IMG/VR virus record: IMGVR_UViG_3300046355_000059
Coordinates: 1-27,172 of that record
From: a virus
Reading direction: 5' to 3' (one strand)
DNA length: 27,172 bases
Positions 10,820-27,046 of the stretch are shown here, in pieces. Positions within the stretch are counted from its first letter, which is position 1; the number at the start of each line of letters is the position of its first letter. The notes beneath the pieces are model-generated. The model did no database searches. It was not told the origin of the DNA and was given only the letters and a program-made list of their open reading frames with translations. The translations under genes were made by a program, and so were the position numbers.

Positions 10820-11236
10820 TTATTTAATTATACCATGCTTCTGCATATATTTGACCAAATTCTTTATATTTTTGGCATCATTTTTAAATACACCCTCTAC
10901 CATGTTGCATCTGCGGCATAGGATACCGCGAATGCACTTGCCGCATGTGGCAGAATTTACTGGGCAGCACGAGTGGTCATGGTCTACGCATAGGTTCTGA
11001 ACAGAGCCGCAGACTTCGCAGCCGCCATCAAGCATATCTAGGTAGGCATCTTCATCTAAACCATACTTGCGTTCTATCATTCGTAGCTTTACCGCTTTTT
11101 TATTACGCATATATGAGGCTCTGTTAACTTCTACCTTACATACCTTGCAGCGATGTTCATAGCCACCCTTGGTTTTTGTAGATTTAAAGTAATCTGATAG
11201 TGGTTTTTCTGTTCTACATACTGAGCAAATTTTCAT
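10820..11236 (-). CDS. Endonuclease VII-like HNH endonuclease
   Basis: 138 aa. An N-terminal zinc finger (CSVC at 4-7, CKVC at 30-33) is followed by KYGLDEDAYLDML and the endonuclease VII-type core: CEVCG, NLCVDHDH near 82-88, then CGKCIRGILCRRCN. The DHDH motif holds the likely metal-binding catalytic His. It lies between terminase and portal genes, a common homing-endonuclease site. It is AT-richer than its neighbours. It lacks a Shine-Dalgarno sequence but has a -10 box 6 bases before ATG 11236, and a second promoter-like box overlaps its last codons. Confidence 0.9.
   Translation of the reverse strand: MKICSVCRTEKPLSDYFKSTKTKGGYEHRCKVCKVEVNRASYMRNKKAVKLRMIERKYGLDEDAYLDMLDGGCEVCGSVQNLCVDHDHSCCPVNSATCGKCIRGILCRRCNMVEGVFKNDAKNIKNLVKYMQKHGIIK
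10827..10835 (-). promoter_or_regulatory. Extended -10 promoter (TGGTATAAT) inside the HNH 3' end
   Basis: TGG plus a perfect TATAAT, formed by the last codons of the HNH gene (His-Gly-Ile-Ile). It lies about 24 bases before the portal ATG, leaving room for the AAGGA ribosome binding site. Confidence 0.6.
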
Positions 11237-11242
11237 ATACTT

Positions 11243-11248
11243 AGTATA
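11243..11248 (-). promoter_or_regulatory. Putative -10 box (TATACT), leaderless spacing
   Basis: TATACT ends exactly 6 bases before ATG 11236. The preceding AGACAAGA is shared with the element in front of the HNH gene at 13940-14482. Confidence 0.5.
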
Positions 11249-11275
11249 TCTTGTCTTAATTAGCGTAAATTATGG

Positions 11276-13939: not shown

Positions 13940-14482
13940 TTATAGCAAGCCATGTTTTTCCATATATGCAGTCACGCCGTCAATTTGCTTCCTTGAATAA
14001 ATATGACCCTCAATAGTATTGCAATTTGTGCATAGTACACCACGAATGCAATTGCCGCACGAATTGCCGACTTTATCATAGCCACAGCAGTCATGGTTGT
14101 GGTCTACGCAGAGGTTTTCAAATGAGCCACAGGCTTCGCATCCGGTAGCAAGCATTGCCTTTAATTCTTCGACTCTAATACCATGACGTTTTGCTCGGTA
14201 TCGTAAATTGTCGCAATCACGACAACGTGGAGATAGGCCAACACTACTTTTGCCAACCTTGAAATCGCCATTTGTTTTTTCGACATTACAGTCTGGACAA
14301 AGCCTAGGCCTGTCAGCAAAGTCGCTGAAGGTTGACTTCATAGCATTTGCCTCGTTGTATGCTTTACGACTTGCCGCGTTTACGCAGCTCCTGCAGTAAT
14401 AGTGGAGACCATCCGACATCTTGCGATTACGCGGGAACTCGGACTCTGGCTTGACGCTTTCGCATCGCTTACATTTCTTCAT
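13940..14482 (-). CDS. Endonuclease VII-like HNH endonuclease with two zinc fingers
   Basis: 180 aa from ATG 14482 (MKKCKRCESVKP). Two N-terminal finger pairs (CKRC/CRSC at 4-33 and CPDC/CRDC at 62-90) precede the endonuclease VII core: CEACG at 115-119, NLCVDHNHDCC near 124-133, then CGNCIRGVLCTNCN. The core is close to that of the HNH gene at 10820-11236, so the two are probably duplicates or sister elements. A longer frame upstream was rejected because the finger begins at the chosen Met. It has no Shine-Dalgarno sequence; a -10 box lies 6 bases before the ATG. Confidence 0.88.
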   Translation of the reverse strand: MKKCKRCESVKPESEFPRNRKMSDGLHYYCRSCVNAASRKAYNEANAMKSTFSDFADRPRLCPDCNVEKTNGDFKVGKSSVGLSPRCRDCDNLRYRAKRHGIRVEELKAMLATGCEACGSFENLCVDHNHDCCGYDKVGNSCGNCIRGVLCTNCNTIEGHIYSRKQIDGVTAYMEKHGLL

Positions 14483-14488
14483 ATAAAA

Positions 14489-14494
14489 AGAATA
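14489..14494 (-). promoter_or_regulatory. Putative -10 box (TATTCT), leaderless spacing
   Basis: TATTCT ends 6 bases before ATG 14482. The upstream AGACAAGA is identical to that before the HNH gene at 11236. Confidence 0.45.
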
Positions 14495-14717
14495 TCTTGT
14501 CTGAATCTTTTTACAAATATCTAGGCGGCTACTGCAAAAAATTTTCAAATACTGCATTTATTACCTGCGAATGTGTGCCCCTCAGAAAGCCGCTACCTGG
14601 CTGAATAAAATGATTTGTTTGGAACGCTTTTTGATTTGCTTTTTGGTTTAGGGCGTGCATAAACTTGACTCATCGCCAAGGGGCGGAAGTGAAAACAACT
14701 AGCAAAGGAAAACAGGA
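14495..14717. promoter_or_regulatory. Divergent intergenic region between late and early blocks
   Basis: The gene direction changes here. The 223 bases contain no convincing gene. A plausible plus-strand promoter is TTGCTT (14636-14641), 18 bases, then TAAACT (14660-14665), which would serve the early genes from 14718. The minus-strand late promoter is at 14489. No operator-like palindrome stands out. Confidence 0.4.
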
Positions 14718-18693: not shown

Positions 18694-19089
18694 ATGAAAA
18701 TCCCAGAGAACTACCTAAAAAAAGTAATAAAGACTGATTCATGTTGGCTATGGAACGGACATATAAACAATAGTGGATATGGAAGATTCAACGCCAAGGA
18801 TATGCCAGACAGATATGTTCATAGAGCTATGTTCTATTGGGCTAATGGCTATCTACCTGCAAGACCAAACGTTGTTGGACATAGTTGCGATGTTAGAAGT
18901 TGCGTAAATCCAGGGCATCTATCGGAACAGACTCAGCAAGAAAACGTTAGACAGTATTCACAACGTATCACGAGTTGCCCTAGTGGCCACGAATATGATA
19001 TAAATAATACATACATTAGGAAAGGTGGCTCTCGCAAGTGTCGAGAGTGCAATCGCCTAAGTGAACAAAGGAGATTATCATCGGGTTAG
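18694..19089 (+). CDS. HNH homing endonuclease with C-terminal zinc finger
   Basis: 131 aa. The HNH_3-type core reads YVHRAMFYWANG near residues 41-52, then VGHSCDVRSCVNPGHL at 61-76. A C-terminal finger follows: CPSGHEYDINNTYIRK from Cys95, with CREC at 116-119. The codons are AT-rich (many AGA and ATA) compared with neighbours, which suggests separate origin. It sits between two genes of unknown function, with its own leaderless promoter. The finger resembles the N-terminal finger of the WhiB protein at 23559. Confidence 0.9.
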   Translation: MKIPENYLKKVIKTDSCWLWNGHINNSGYGRFNAKDMPDRYVHRAMFYWANGYLPARPNVVGHSCDVRSCVNPGHLSEQTQQENVRQYSQRITSCPSGHEYDINNTYIRKGGSRKCRECNRLSEQRRLSSG

Positions 19090-21003: not shown

Positions 21004-21254
21004 TGATTGGGATTGTAGCCATTGTGCTATTCACCCTTTGGTATTTGAACCATAAGAAGGAGATAAATGAGCAGAGAACAACTGAGTCCACTGACATTGG
21101 AACAGCGTCAGATGAAGGCAGTCGAGAAGATTATCTCAGAGCCTACCAAGGCAGCTCTCAACGCTTCCCTTATGGGAACGGGGAAGACACTTATGGGCGT
21201 GGAGGTAGCGAAGCACCTTGGCAGTCAGACCATACTAATCGTTGGACCACTTAA
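21003..21254 (+). CDS. Possible small membrane protein overlapping the helicase gene
   Basis: 83 aa from GTG 21003 within a TAGTG overlap. The first 16 residues (MIGIVAIVLFTLWYLN) form a membrane span, followed by a polar, Gly/Ser-rich tail. The last 188 bases overlap the helicase gene in another frame, so the tail may be partly accidental. The coupled start and membrane span favour translation; the overlap argues caution. Confidence 0.4.
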   Translation: MIGIVAIVLFTLWYLNHKKEINEQRTTESTDIGTASDEGSREDYLRAYQGSSQRFPYGNGEDTYGRGGSEAPWQSDHTNRWTT

Positions 21255-21858
21255 CACTTACTGGGGTTGGTGGGATACCATCCAGCGACAGACCGGCTAC
21301 AAGAGCGTCATTCGCAAGATTGACAGTAGCAAGTCTGGCAAGGAGGCGATGCAGTTATTGATTGCTAAGGAACCTGGGTGGTATTTCATCGGCCGTGAGT
21401 ATTTCAGAACGCAGGTCTGGGATAAGATTGTGCCAGATATTGCTATGGTTGATGAATGCCACTTTGCACAGAACCGCAATAGCAAGTCATTCAAGTCGCT
21501 TATGAAGTTGAAGTCCGGCTTCAAGTTGTCAATGTCGGGAACGCCATACGGCAATAAGTTTGAGGGCTTCTGGGCAGTAACGCGATGGCTATGGCCTAGC
21601 GTTGTGCCTAAGAGTTTTTGGTCTTGGGTGTATGACTACTGTCGGACTGGCTATTCACCGTTCAGCAAGATGGATATCCTTGGAGAGTTGGAGCCGGGTA
21701 GGTTTGCCAAGTCTCTTCCATGCTACATTCGCCTTGAGCCTAACCACAATCTAGAAGTCGTGGAGGAAACTAGATTCGTAGACCTTGTGCCAGCACAGCG
21801 CAAGATTTATGAGAAGTTCGAGAAAGACTTGGTTGTGTGGCTAAAGGATAACCCATGA
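21067..21858 (+). CDS. SNF2/DEAD-type helicase, N-terminal ATPase half
   Basis: 263 aa, ATG 21067 with a strong AAGGAGAT site. It has Walker A LMGTGKT (residues 35-41), motif Ia LIVGPLNTYWGWW near 57-69, motif II MVDECH (127-132) and motif III SMSGTP (155-160). These are the first RecA-like domain of an SF2 helicase of the SNF2 kind found in phage replication modules. It ends at TGA 21856-21858, where homologues normally continue into the second domain. The second domain is encoded by the next gene, whose ATG overlaps this stop. The two parts probably act together on DNA. Confidence 0.88.
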   Translation: MSREQLSPLTLEQRQMKAVEKIISEPTKAALNASLMGTGKTLMGVEVAKHLGSQTILIVGPLNTYWGWWDTIQRQTGYKSVIRKIDSSKSGKEAMQLLIAKEPGWYFIGREYFRTQVWDKIVPDIAMVDECHFAQNRNSKSFKSLMKLKSGFKLSMSGTPYGNKFEGFWAVTRWLWPSVVPKSFWSWVYDYCRTGYSPFSKMDILGELEPGRFAKSLPCYIRLEPNHNLEVVEETRFVDLVPAQRKIYEKFEKDLVVWLKDNP

Positions 21859-22415
21859 TTGCAGAAGTCCCGATTGCAGCTCGCATCCGACTACGACAGA
21901 TTACCCTTGCAGTGCCAAGTATCAACGAGGCCAACGAGGTTATCTTCGAGGCAGACGCGGTAAGCACTAAGTACAAAGCGCTTCAGGAAATCATTGAGGA
22001 TAATCCGAATGAACCTATGTTGCTCTTGACTGACAGCCAGAAGTATGCTAACCTTGTTGCAACACGTCTTGGTGATTCTGCTTTCGAGTGGAGTGGCCAA
22101 GCAAACCAGGCACAACGCGAAGCTGCGAAGCAGAAGTTTCTCAAGGGAGAGCTTCAATATATCGTTGCAGTTATTCCAGCGATTGCCGAGGGCGTAGACG
22201 GATTGCAGGATGTATGTTCTACAATCGTCTGGCTATCACATAGCGACAGTAACCTAATGAATCAGCAGGTTATCGACCGCATTCGTAGACGTGGCCAGAA
22301 GAACATTGTAAAGATTTACGACATCGTGGCACGTGATACCTATGACGAAGGTCAGTTGTCTTCGCTTGTAGAAACGCAGCTTGCTATGAACGCAAGCCTT
22401 AGGGAGGAAAAGTAA
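21855..22415 (+). CDS. SNF2/DEAD-type helicase, C-terminal half
   Basis: 186 aa, beginning at ATG 21855 in an ATGA overlap with the N-terminal half and with AAAGGA 7 bases upstream. It has LLLTDSQKYANLV near residue 56 (motif IV region), AVIPAIAEGVDGLQ near 105-118 (motif V) and QQVIDRIRRRGQ near 137-148 (motif VI with the arginine finger). It lacks a Walker A motif, so it cannot be an active ATPase alone. Either two chains assemble, or a -1 frameshift at the junction makes a fused protein. Confidence 0.87.
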   Translation: MIAEVPIAARIRLRQITLAVPSINEANEVIFEADAVSTKYKALQEIIEDNPNEPMLLLTDSQKYANLVATRLGDSAFEWSGQANQAQREAAKQKFLKGELQYIVAVIPAIAEGVDGLQDVCSTIVWLSHSDSNLMNQQVIDRIRRRGQKNIVKIYDIVARDTYDEGQLSSLVETQLAMNASLREEK

Positions 22416-22606: not shown

Positions 22607-22778
22607 TGAGACACCAATCTACAATCAGATGCAGAAGCACTATGCGATGATGAGAGAGACTATTCGGATAGAACAGCGTATTGAACTCGTAAAGCAACTA
22701 AAGGCAATCAAGAAGCCAGTCAAGCAAGTTCAGGATTTGATTAAGGAGTATGAGAATGCCGAGATTAAAAACACCTAA
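22599..22778 (+). CDS. Small helical protein (59 aa), unknown
   Basis: 59 aa from ATG 22599 (MTNETPIYNQMQKHYAMMRE) with AAGGA upstream; it overlaps the previous gene by 8 bases. It is mainly charged helix, probably coiled coil. A longer frame from 22539 would run through the Cys-rich gene and is rejected. Confidence 0.55.
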   Translation: MTNETPIYNQMQKHYAMMRETIRIEQRIELVKQLKAIKKPVKQVQDLIKEYENAEIKNT

Positions 22779-23121
22779 GCCACCATGCTCTGTAAACGAC
22801 TGCAAGAATCAGAGCTGGCGACTCTACGAGTACTGCCGAATGCACCAGGCTAGAGTCATGAGAACTGGCACAGTAGACGGTATCGCCAGGCTTCGTGCAA
22901 TCAACAAAGAAGCGAAGCAAGAGCGGGCTAAGTTCTGTAAGGAAGAAGGATGCCAAGATAAGGTAGTCCAACGCTTCCGTTGCGAGTGGCACTATGACGA
23001 CTTGATTGAGCGGATGCGAATACGCAACCAACAGAACTATGAACTAATGCAAGAGTACGAAGACATCGACTACGATGACTACTGGGAATGGGTAAAAAAG
23101 GAGCTGAAGTTAGATGCCTGA
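22756..23121 (+). CDS. Double zinc-finger protein (C-x4-C...C-x2-H)
   Basis: 121 aa from ATG 22756, 7 bases after AAGGAG; the Met at 22750 is too close to that site. Two similar fingers are visible: C11, C16, C27, H30 and C61, C66, C76, H79, each with a C-R/E-x-H pattern (YCRMHQ; RCEWHYD). Such fingers occur in phage HNH-associated and DNA-binding proteins. No nuclease core is present. The C-terminus is acidic. Confidence 0.65.
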   Translation: MPRLKTPKPPCSVNDCKNQSWRLYEYCRMHQARVMRTGTVDGIARLRAINKEAKQERAKFCKEEGCQDKVVQRFRCEWHYDDLIERMRIRNQQNYELMQEYEDIDYDDYWEWVKKELKLDA

Positions 23122-23215: not shown

Positions 23216-23284
23216 GTGAGCAAGATGAATGAGCAATGGTTACAAGAGAACTATCCACAACCACGGGAGGAAGCCGATGAATAA
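23216..23284 (+). CDS. 22-aa possible leader peptide, GTG start
   Basis: The frame runs from GTG 23216 to TAA 23284, with AAAGGAG well placed upstream, and its end overlaps the start of the next gene. It may only serve to couple translation to the next gene. Confidence 0.3.
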   Translation: MSKMNEQWLQENYPQPREEADE

Positions 23285-23558
23285 AGCAGAGATGGTAACA
23301 GAGTATCTACATTGGCGAAACAACAAGGCCAATCAGTTCCGATATTCAGGCGAAGACGAGTTCTCGCCCGAGGCTTGGATTCAGGAAACCTTAATGTCTG
23401 ATGCTCTTGTTAGAATCAATCTGATTAAGGACGTTCTGGAGAGAACAGACCCAGACCCGATTGAACTTGCAAGCATCATTCACGCTCTGGTTTACGACGA
23501 CCTAAGCAAGCCAATCGTAATTGATGACCCTTACGAGGATGAAGAAGAATTGGAATAA
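23277..23558 (+). CDS. Early protein of unknown function (93 aa)
   Basis: 93 aa from ATG 23277 (MNKAEMVTEYLHWRNNKANQ) with GGGAGG upstream. It is helical and acidic at the C-terminus, with FSPEAWIQETLMSDALVRIN in the middle. The stop is directly followed by the ATG of the WhiB-type gene, so the two are probably co-translated. Confidence 0.65.
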   Translation: MNKAEMVTEYLHWRNNKANQFRYSGEDEFSPEAWIQETLMSDALVRINLIKDVLERTDPDPIELASIIHALVYDDLSKPIVIDDPYEDEEELE

Positions 23559-24077
23559 ATGAGCGAATATCAGTGGGAACAAGCGGATAAGAACAATCCG
23601 TGGGGTAAGAAGAGAGCCAGGGGAAGTCACTGCTCTAAGGGGCATGAGTTCACCGAGGAGAATACTTTTATTCGCCCACTTGATAACGCTCGTGTCTGCC
23701 GACAGTGCCGCAAAGAATATGCCAAGATGAAGTATCAGGAAAAAAAGATACAGAACAACGGCGTGGCCCGGACGAAGAAAGAAAAGATTCAGGTCTTTGA
23801 ACTATCTGAATCAGTTCCACTACTTGACAAAGCAATCCCATTCTGGGATAATCTACAAAAGGGTTTACGAGAAACAGACGTAGCCTGTACTGATGACCCA
23901 GCAGCTTGGGTTGATTACTCAACTAAGATGTCGTGGCAAGAAGCCGAAGAGATGTGCCATATGTGCCCACTCATCAAGGCCTGTTATGACTTCGCGATTG
24001 CACAAGAAGTAAACGCCGGTATCTGGGGCGGTATTCACTTTGACGAGGAAGAGGGTGGCTTGTTTGACATTGACTGA
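23559..24077 (+). CDS. WhiB-family regulator with an N-terminal HNH-type zinc finger
   Basis: 172 aa. The C-terminal half has the WhiB signature: Cys110, Cys133-x2-Cys136 and Cys142, expected to bind a [4Fe-4S] cluster, followed by GIWGG at 154-158. WhiB proteins act with the primary sigma factor to redirect transcription and occur in Actinobacteria and their phages. Residues 25-50 form an extra finger (C25, H29, C47, C50) closely resembling the C-terminal finger of the HNH protein at 18694. A basic linker (about 52-78) joins them. It probably regulates phage or host promoters; the extra finger may add DNA contacts. Confidence 0.88.
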   Translation: MSEYQWEQADKNNPWGKKRARGSHCSKGHEFTEENTFIRPLDNARVCRQCRKEYAKMKYQEKKIQNNGVARTKKEKIQVFELSESVPLLDKAIPFWDNLQKGLRETDVACTDDPAAWVDYSTKMSWQEAEEMCHMCPLIKACYDFAIAQEVNAGIWGGIHFDEEEGGLFDID

Positions 24078-24093: not shown

Positions 24094-24765
24094 ATGACTG
24101 TTGGTTTATTCCTTCAGGAATCAGAAAGAGACAAGCAGCACAAGGTTGGGGCATCGCAGATATCCGACCCTTGTACTAGGCATCTAGCTCACGCACTTGT
24201 GCGCACAGAGCAAGGGCCACAAAAGTATTGGATGGGAGGCAAGATTGGTACAGCTATTCACGGATTTATTGAGCGTTCTATTGCCGATAGCGATAATGTT
24301 CTTTTCGATGGCGCTCTTGTCGAACAAAAAATCGGACTTGGTGTTCTTGACGGGTATGGTTCTATATCTAGTAAGCCTGACCTGGTTCTGGTATCTAGCA
24401 ACCACCTAATCGACTGGAAGACAACATCACGTGCTAAGGTTAAGAAGCTGCAGAACTTTGTGGCCGGACTAAAGCATGACTCAGCATCAGAGTATACACT
24501 TCGCAAGTATGTTGGCCAAGCGCAACTCTATGCTTGGGGATTAAACCAAGGAGGCATCAAGATTGATAAAGTTACTTTGGTATTTATTAATCGTGATGGT
24601 ACTTATGATAATGACATCTGGACTTTCAGTGTGGACTACGATTCACAGTTCGCACTTACACTATGGACCAGGCTAGAAGCAATTTGGTCTGAGCTGCAAG
24701 ATGGACTTCATCCAGAATCATATGCGCCACACCCTGATTGCTACAAATGCTCTACGGGTATTTAA
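24094..24765 (+). CDS. Cas4/RecB-like PD-(D/E)XK exonuclease
   Basis: 223 aa from ATG 24094. Motifs: GTAIHGFIE near 52-60, KPDLVLV with Asp96, the DWK core at 107-109 and GQAQLYAW at 141-148, the order found in RecB-family and Cas4-like nucleases. Cys27 and Cys216/Cys219 could be part of an Fe-S site, but the usual fourth Cys is not evident. It probably resects DNA ends for recombination. The start is uncertain: AAAGGAG abuts ATG 24094, and in-frame TTG codons at 24064 and 24070 with GAGGGTGG upstream are alternatives that would overlap the WhiB gene. Confidence 0.82.
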   Translation: MTVGLFLQESERDKQHKVGASQISDPCTRHLAHALVRTEQGPQKYWMGGKIGTAIHGFIERSIADSDNVLFDGALVEQKIGLGVLDGYGSISSKPDLVLVSSNHLIDWKTTSRAKVKKLQNFVAGLKHDSASEYTLRKYVGQAQLYAWGLNQGGIKIDKVTLVFINRDGTYDNDIWTFSVDYDSQFALTLWTRLEAIWSELQDGLHPESYAPHPDCYKCSTGI

Positions 24766-24846: not shown

Positions 24847-25581
24847 ATGAGTGAAGCAACAAAGGCACCACAGCCAGCATTTCTAAAGATGATTCACAAG
24901 GCTGAGACACTGAACCGACCTAAGTCAATGCTGTTCTACGGTGACGCAGGACGTGGCAAGACTTGGCTTGCAGCTTCGATTTCAGAGGTTGCAGAGTTCG
25001 GTCCGGTTCTACTAATTGATGCCGAGGGTGGCTCATCGGCCATCGCCCGTGACTTCAAGACCGTAGATGTTATTCAGGTTGAGAAGCACGAGCAGTTCCA
25101 AGCGGTCTACGACTGGCTAATGGAAGGCGACCACAAGTACCAGACAATCATCATCGACACCATCGGCGTTGTGATGGACCGAGCCGAGAAGTTTTTCGGC
25201 GAAAAGCCAGAGAATAAGGGCAACAAGTTTGGTAAGTGGGGCGACCTAAAGAACTGGGCGAATGAAATCTTCCGCACGTTCCACACCGCCCCATTTGTGA
25301 GCATACTTATTGCTCACGCCTTCGATGACAAGGACGAGAACAGCGGTGCTATCAAGACCACTGCGATGCTTCCTGGCTCTTTCAAGGCAACCCTTCCATC
25401 TATCCCAGACATCGTTGGTTACATGACCATCGAGGCGCAGGAAGATGGCCCACCACAGCGAGTCCTCGTAGTTGGACAGTCTGACCGATTGGTTACCAAG
25501 AACCGCTTCGGTTTACCGGCTAAAATCTACGACCCATCCATGAAGTCAATCATGGAACTTATCAATAAAGGAGGAAAGTAA
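24847..25581 (+). CDS. Sak4-like RecA-fold ATPase (recombinase)
   Basis: 244 aa. Walker A is GDAGRGKT (residues 32-39) and Walker B is TIIIDT around 100-105, followed by VVMDRAEKFFGEKP. The size and motif spacing match the AAA_24/Sak4 group of phage single-strand annealing or RecA-like proteins, which act in homologous recombination together with an SSB-like partner. That partner is plausibly the DUF669-like gene two genes downstream. A strong promoter and AAGGAGG site precede it. The next gene starts in its stop (TAATG). Confidence 0.85.
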   Translation: MSEATKAPQPAFLKMIHKAETLNRPKSMLFYGDAGRGKTWLAASISEVAEFGPVLLIDAEGGSSAIARDFKTVDVIQVEKHEQFQAVYDWLMEGDHKYQTIIIDTIGVVMDRAEKFFGEKPENKGNKFGKWGDLKNWANEIFRTFHTAPFVSILIAHAFDDKDENSGAIKTTAMLPGSFKATLPSIPDIVGYMTIEAQEDGPPQRVLVVGQSDRLVTKNRFGLPAKIYDPSMKSIMELINKGGK

Positions 25582-26549: not shown

Positions 26550-26621
26550 TGCCCCCTAGCTCAATGGCAGAGCAGGAAGCTGTTAACTTCAAGGTTGCTG
26601 GTTCGAGTCCAGCGGGGGCAG
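26550..26621 (+). tRNA. tRNA-Asn (GTT)
   Basis: Acceptor TGCCCCC/GGGGGCA, D-arm GCTC-AATGGCA-GAGC, anticodon loop CTGTTAA giving GTT, T-arm GCTGG-TTCGAGT-CCAGC, discriminator G. The outermost anticodon-stem pair is a G-A mismatch. CCA is not encoded. Confidence 0.92.
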
Positions 26622-26625
26622 CAAA

Positions 26626-26708
26626 CAGTAACAACGGTCAGTGAGCCTAGCGTAAACTAACCCCCGCCTGTACTTTCATGTCTGGTGCTAGGATGTTAGT
26701 TGTTACTG
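26626..26708 (+). ncRNA. Strongly structured spacer RNA, possible pseudoknot
   Basis: A perfect 10-bp helix closes the element: CAGTAACAAC (26626-26635) with GTTGTTACTG (26699-26708). Inside, CCTAGC (26646-26651) pairs with GCTAGG (26687-26692). AACTAAC (26655-26661) is complementary to GTTAGTT (26695-26701), which would cross the inner helix as a pseudoknot or compete with the outer helix. A further GGTAGGC/GCCTGCC hairpin follows (26709-26730). It is not a recognisable tRNA. Confidence 0.45.
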
Positions 26709-26735
26709 GGTAGGCTCTGCAGGGCCTGCCAATTT

Positions 26736-26811
26736 GCCTCAATAGCTCAGTTGGTAGAGCGCCATACTTGTAATATGGATGTCGCGGGTTCAATTCCTGC
26801 TTGGGGCTCCA
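26736..26811 (+). tRNA. tRNA-Thr (TGT), CCA encoded
   Basis: Acceptor GCCTCAA/TTGGGGC, D-arm GCTC/GAGC with GTTGG in the loop, anticodon stem CCATA/TATGG, loop CTTGTAA giving TGT, T-arm GCGGG-TTCAATT-CCTGC, discriminator T, then CCA. Confidence 0.95.
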
Positions 26812-26857
26812 ACAGGCAGAGAAACTGTCTCGGAGGCATCTGAGATAAGTCAAACCT

Positions 26858-26939
26858 GGAACTATAGTACAATGGCAGTACGCAGAGGTCTGAATGCAGG
26901 ACATAATCTGAAATCTTGGTTCAAATCCAAGTAGTTCAT
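26858..26939 (+). tRNA. Atypical tRNA-like element with an enlarged anticodon arm
   Basis: Acceptor pairs 2-7 form (GAACTA/TAGTTC, first pair G-A), the D-arm is GTAC-AATGGCA-GTAC and the T-arm CTTGG-TTCAAAT-CCAAG is perfect. The 32 bases between D- and T-arms are about 10 too many. They fold as CAGA/TCTG enclosing GTCT/GGAC with loop GAATGCA, which lacks the invariant U33. An alternative loop GTCTGAA would read CTG (Gln) but its stem hardly pairs. No isotype is assigned; it may be decaying or specialised. Confidence 0.5.
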
Positions 26940-26943
26940 TTAA

Positions 26944-27014
26944 GGGTTCTAAGTGTTACGGTAGCACAACGGTCTCCAACACCGTTAGCGAAGGTTCGAC
27001 TCCTTCAGAATCTG
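26944..27014 (+). tRNA. tRNA-Trp (CCA)
   Basis: Acceptor GGGTTCT/AGAATCT (two G-T pairs), D-arm GTGT-TACGGTA-GCAC, anticodon stem ACGGT/ACCGT with loop CTCCAAC giving CCA, T-arm GAAGG-TTCGACT-CCTTC, discriminator G. CCA is not encoded at the 3' end. Confidence 0.92.
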
Positions 27015-27046
27015 CGGAGAGTAAATAATCAATCAAAGGAGGATAT

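Follow-up and report, generated by a model that had tools for sequence, protein, structure and literature searches.

How WhiB proteins find their promoters is puzzling, as nearly all of them are without a recognised DNA-binding domain. A gene at 23559..24077 (+ strand) of IMG/VR virus record IMGVR_UViG_3300046355_000059 bears on this question. Within the window, as the 27,172 nucleotides analysed are called here, this gene encodes a 172-residue protein in which a zinc finger precedes a WhiB domain. Is the join real, where did the finger come from, and what might it add to a WhiB regulator?

Architecture and occurrence of the finger-WhiB protein

The open reading frame and its translation have homologues on 59 contigs. 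The protein consists, in order, of an N-terminal finger, a basic helix with a linker, and the WhiB domain. The finger unit (residues 20–64; 23616..23750, +) has the pattern C-x2-GH-x17-C-x2-C, with C25, H29, C47, and C50 as ligands. It is followed by a linker (residues 65–104; 23751..23870, +) that holds the recombination breakpoints visible in nucleotide identity profiles. In the WhiB domain (residues 110–163; 23886..24047, +) the cluster residues C110, C133, C136, and C142 and the turn G154-I-W-G-G158 are all intact; these residues, like the frame itself, are just as the earlier note gave them. The domain scores 41.3 bits against PF02467 (E 2.3e-10; curated cut-off 23.6), displays the Wbl cysteine series C-xn-C-x2-C-x5-C and the G(V/I)WGG turn, and matches by sequence the structures of WhiB3, WhiB7, and WhiB1, some of them solved in sigma complexes. 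Across 38 aligned members (38/38), neither the eight metal-ligand residues nor GxWGG vary. A model of the whole protein is of low confidence (mean pLDDT 63.5); its best structural matches are WhiB3 and WhiB7 bound to region 4 of sigma-A, with non-significant E-values.

The full fusion was found on 59 IMG/VR contigs in two scans, at identities from 100% down to 45%, and the collected loci hold 46 distinct fused sequences. The terminase is closest to those of Arthrobacter phages (47%), consistent with an actinobacterial host. Among cultured phages, none of 50,697 phage records covers at least 80% of the query. One scan of bacterial chromosomes with two peptide patterns, which could miss distant fusions, returned no fusion; its sole match was a multi-fingered HNH protein of Mycobacterium montefiorense. 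The join of finger and WhiB domain is thus confirmed as real and as conserved in viruses of actinobacteria. A single WhiB protein was found in 18 of 20 records searched, many of which are fragments. Besides its finger-WhiB, the contig of L104 encodes a plain WhiB (L171:1254-1541) that lies between the exonuclease and Sak4 genes, and that of L034 has a second WhiB protein (L170:757-1248) whose C-terminal helix-turn-helix resembles AsnC/WhiA types.

The earlier note would have counted its reading as refuted if the finger proved to belong regularly to an established WhiB subfamily. It is indeed standard in a phage subfamily, but that subfamily was found in no family model or paper. A search of mostly non-subscription literature found no paper uniting WhiB, phage, zinc finger, and HNH, and a survey of WhiB in actinophages mentions neither HNH nor zinc (PMC8612146).

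The setting of the gene is constant. In 27 compared loci, as far as they reach, an SNF2 helicase precedes it and a block of exonuclease, Sak4, and p25795 follows. In the window the helicase is encoded by two frames that overlap by 4 nt (21067..22415, +; phrog_62), and a gene for 109 amino acids of unknown function (23229..23558, +) ends in a TAA directly before the finger-WhiB ATG. Downstream are a Cas4/RecB-like exonuclease (24094..24765, +; phrog_1674, E 1.1e-25) and a Sak4-like ssDNA annealing protein (24847..25581, +; phrog_124, E 1.1e-46); helicase, exonuclease, and annealing protein are all syntenic neighbours. Upstream of the 109-residue gene, L004 and L005 carry a segment of about 414 nt containing small ORFs (L004:5245-5659) that is absent from the window (at 23219). 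At the end of the early arm lie genes for four tRNAs (Asn, Thr, Gln, Trp; 26550-27015).

Relationship of the finger to those of phage nucleases

An HNH_3 endonuclease encoded at 18694..19089 (+) of the window carries the same finger at its C terminus (residues 95–119; nt 18976-19050). The earlier note held that the two fingers match residue for residue in layout. Homology is upheld by pairwise comparison (13/32 identities, E 9e-6), but not the exact layout: the spacing from H to C is 17 residues in finger-WhiB and 16 in the HNH protein. Independent profiles of phage HNH proteins match the finger half (phrog_1492, E 6.4e-12; phrog_826, E 1.8e-10) and the finger part alone, while WhiB PHROG profiles match the C-terminal half. 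These profiles, the Pfam WhiB match on the other half, and the superposition of folds described below argue that the likeness is not due to chance. No HNH catalytic domain was found in finger-WhiB by a Pfam search, which gave WhiB only.

An alignment of 63 diverse finger segments built from DNA references (A5) shows C, H, E, C, and C to be invariant. The AlphaFold2 model derived from it (mean pLDDT 91.2) runs from a Cys/His knuckle through a short β hairpin to a basic helix that has C47-x2-C50 at its start, a topology that can be read as treble-clef-like. The phage LittleE HNH endonuclease can be superposed on this predicted fold with a TM score of 0.87 and an rmsd of 1.0 Å, as can many further HNH proteins from actinophages. 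The predicted folds are thus related, contrary to the possibility, raised in the earlier note, that structure prediction would separate them. Both this fold and the signature C-x2-GHE...N-T...R-x-C-x2-C of the HNH-associated phage finger are present. Against Pfam the 63 segments give scattered weak matches, and no Pfam model covers the finger. Related fingers occur in HNH_3 proteins (35 of 54), in endonuclease VII (7), and in one ROS/MUCR-type protein. The finger is homologous to those of HNH and endonuclease VII proteins.

Phage HNH_3 endonucleases (phrog_826, phrog_1492) carry a C-terminal C-x2-GH...C-x2-C finger that is the same by profile and predicted fold, whereas finger-WhiB is without the nuclease domain and has its finger at the N terminus, joined to WhiB. 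Other combinations were seen. L066/L153 have the reverse order, WhiB followed by two fingers; the same finger is joined to a ROS/MUCR-like protein at L077:5425-6198; and at L151:3731-5008 an HNH-type protein with two fingers is joined to a calcineurin-like phosphoesterase. In the window a protein of 123 residues (22750-23121) has two Cys/His-rich stretches that match phrog_5351 and phrog_1271; no HNH domain was found in it by Pfam, and it may be a second protein that has nuclease fingers without being a nuclease. A tblastn candidate for a reverse fusion, gp58 of Gordonia phage Twister6, was set aside, as its translation has the finger without the WhiB cysteine pattern.

Constraint and exchange of the two halves

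Codon differences between L017 and L026 are distributed very unevenly. In the finger half (columns 1–64) 27 are silent and 3 are replacements; in the WhiB half the counts are 17 and 23. These ratios argue for strong purifying selection on the finger, which by this measure is constrained more tightly than the WhiB half. A finger of this kind is typical of phage HNH proteins, and it might be what is left, and kept by chance, of an HNH homing gene that integrated next to whiB and then lost the nuclease part. Such an origin is very improbable: the four ligands are invariant down to 46% protein identity, selection is strong, and the finger changes state few times on the tree discussed below.

Comparison of the window with L008 and L006 shows that more than constraint is at work. 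Nucleotide identity is about 90–97% in the finger half, falls to about 40–70% in the linker and WhiB half, and rises again to about 83–93% at the gene end. Fourfold-degenerate sites of the window and L008 differ at 2 of 18 positions in the finger, 7 of 13 in the linker, and 11 of 13 in the WhiB half, a pattern of DNA replacement and not of selection on the protein alone. The window, L006, L007, and L008 have a finger in common and differ in the WhiB half; L010 and L011 have the WhiB half in common and differ in the finger; L107 and L117 have only the finger in common. The two halves have been exchanged independently between close relatives, near the domain border.

History of the fusion

Sister phages have a finger-less WhiB at the same position (L204, L215, L228, L231, L243, and others), and in several of these loci a second small WhiB lies between the first and the exonuclease. 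The finger-less proteins occupy an orthologous position, and their WhiB halves are about 33–50% identical to that of finger-WhiB; they differ from it in being encoded by ORFs of 93–158 amino acids, in having no finger, and in being acidic (7 tested). A tree of exonuclease and Sak4 with 46 fingered and 24 finger-less loci requires at least two changes of state. A single fingered clade was rejected at p-AU 0.022, although the tree was a quick one and the tested set had been defined by reference to the trait. The tree does not distinguish between repeated gain of the finger unit, its loss, and its transfer.

The HNH gene at 18694 was found among the compared loci only in the window and L004, and is therefore an improbable donor of the finger in this lineage; it would be a late arrival. 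It was not found in L008, L009, or L028, which cover its site and have finger-WhiB, and was rejected as donor on that ground. The earlier proposal that a finger spread from HNH genes into a regulator is supported in part, by the homology, the join to WhiB, and the finger-less orthologues at the same locus; the resident HNH gene is not supported as source, and the spread may have run in either direction.

A possible role in promoter contact

The N-terminal finger module of fingered members has a median net charge of +10. The C-terminal tail is acidic (median −4), as is the WhiB half, and the seven finger-less orthologues tested carry net charges of −10 to −14. A basic module with a treble-clef-like fold, set on an otherwise acidic protein, suggests that the finger is the likely DNA-contacting part, and this is the best inference. 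A DNA-binding role of the finger in HNH proteins is assumed here.

Fingers of the treble-clef type bind proteins or RNA as well. The finger might instead do so here, in a sigma-binding host-takeover factor or repressor tied to RNA polymerase or to the adjacent replication proteins. The fixed place upstream of exonuclease and Sak4 would suit such a role. In sequence comparison with the Protein Data Bank, the finger profile weakly matched only the ribosomal protein uS14, an RNA binder (E 0.006), and foldseek matches in the same database were mostly of RING type, all non-significant. The relatives in DNA nucleases and in the ROS/MUCR-type protein, the positive charge, and the long basic helix speak against this alternative, which is somewhat unlikely.

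In known WhiB proteins the four cluster cysteines and GxWGG are the parts that dock on region 4 of sigma-A. The earlier note suggested that the finger might supply specificity in place of reliance on sigma. The stronger conservation of the finger relative to the WhiB half would agree with a protein that takes its DNA specificity from the finger alone. This idea is improbable, since the docking residues are invariant in 38/38 members and WhiB halves have been swapped for other intact WhiB halves, with no decay. Their retention makes it more likely that the finger acts in addition to sigma.

Known DNA contacts of WhiB proteins are made by C-terminal basic residues, by an Arg-rich motif in WhiB3, or by the AT-hook of WhiB7 (PMC10245118, PMC6282962), and a 2018 review recognises a DNA-binding motif in no Wbl other than WhiB7/WblC (PMC6282962). 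Finger-WhiB resembles WhiB7/WblC in its cluster cysteines, in GxWGG, and probably in pairing a sigma-docking domain with a separate DNA-contacting element (PMC6282962, PMC10245118). The extra element of WhiB7/WblC is a C-terminal AT-hook, whereas finger-WhiB has an N-terminal finger and an acidic C-terminal tail; the AT-hook (RGRP) is absent from that tail, where GIWGG is followed by IHFDEEEGGLFDID. A second likeness is found in Streptomyces phages (Beephvirinae): Zeigle gp65, FlowerPower gp63, and Treat gp67 combine WhiB with a short C-x2-GH...C-x2-C finger, and an exonuclease gene lies downstream. They differ in that the finger is C-terminal, its loop is shorter, and GxWGG is degenerate (YWTVR). 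PHROGs places them in phrog_1333, "unknown function", and these reverse-order proteins of cultured phages are apparently undescribed. Only a shared pattern and a weak tblastn match link their short finger to the HNH finger.

Start codons and promoter-like sites

Several members (L011, L028/L123, L032/L129, L103, L104, L107, L116, L117, L124, and L128) have no ATG, TTG, or well-placed GTG before the finger. Their start reads ATC-GTA-GAY-TAY-AAR, in register with ATG-GTG-GAC-TAC of L015/L018, and mostly has a purine-rich, Shine-Dalgarno-like stretch 4–7 nt upstream, which suggests a conserved AUC start codon.

A candidate promoter-like site close to consensus, TTGACA-17-GATAAT preceded by TG, lies inside the gene at the finger/WhiB junction (23824..23852, +). 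A site at this junction is also present in L020, L089, L096, L129, L130, and others; L086 and L088, which have a different WhiB half, are without it. Such sites occur at two positions within the gene, with L128–L130 differing from the rest, and in 13 of 38 members the best site has a synonymous-shuffle p of 0.03 or less, uncorrected for relatedness.

Repeats and a recurring motif were examined for an operator, and no regulon motif was accepted. The candidate RATTMAGRCAAGA was rejected: of its zero-mismatch copies, two closely precede the two related endonuclease VII genes and the third falls in a short ORF. The two endonuclease VII genes have an upstream stretch in common, ACAAGATAT(A/T)CT...TATATGAA (window 11220-11262 and 14478-14523, −), which resembles a promoter of leaderless transcription; the second gene may start near 14482 instead of 14557.

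Implications

Finger-WhiB is probably a phage-encoded transcription factor of the Wbl family to which a zinc finger that contacts DNA has been added. Its WhiB half would hold a [4Fe-4S] cluster and dock onto the host's primary sigma factor at region 4, while the treble-clef-like finger and basic helix, on a flexible linker, would touch promoter DNA. The finger could thereby pick the promoters that the WhiB–sigma complex turns on or off; its targets are likely to be promoters of the phage, among them perhaps the one that drives its own recombination operon. More tentatively, and with some doubt, these proteins may form a class of WhiB in which a zinc finger reads promoters while WhiB docks sigma, and in which phages reassort the halves and so rewire promoter use. 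Fingers of phage nucleases also turn up in regulators, and a separable finger, together with natural pairs that share one half, makes promoter choice by WhiB directly testable.
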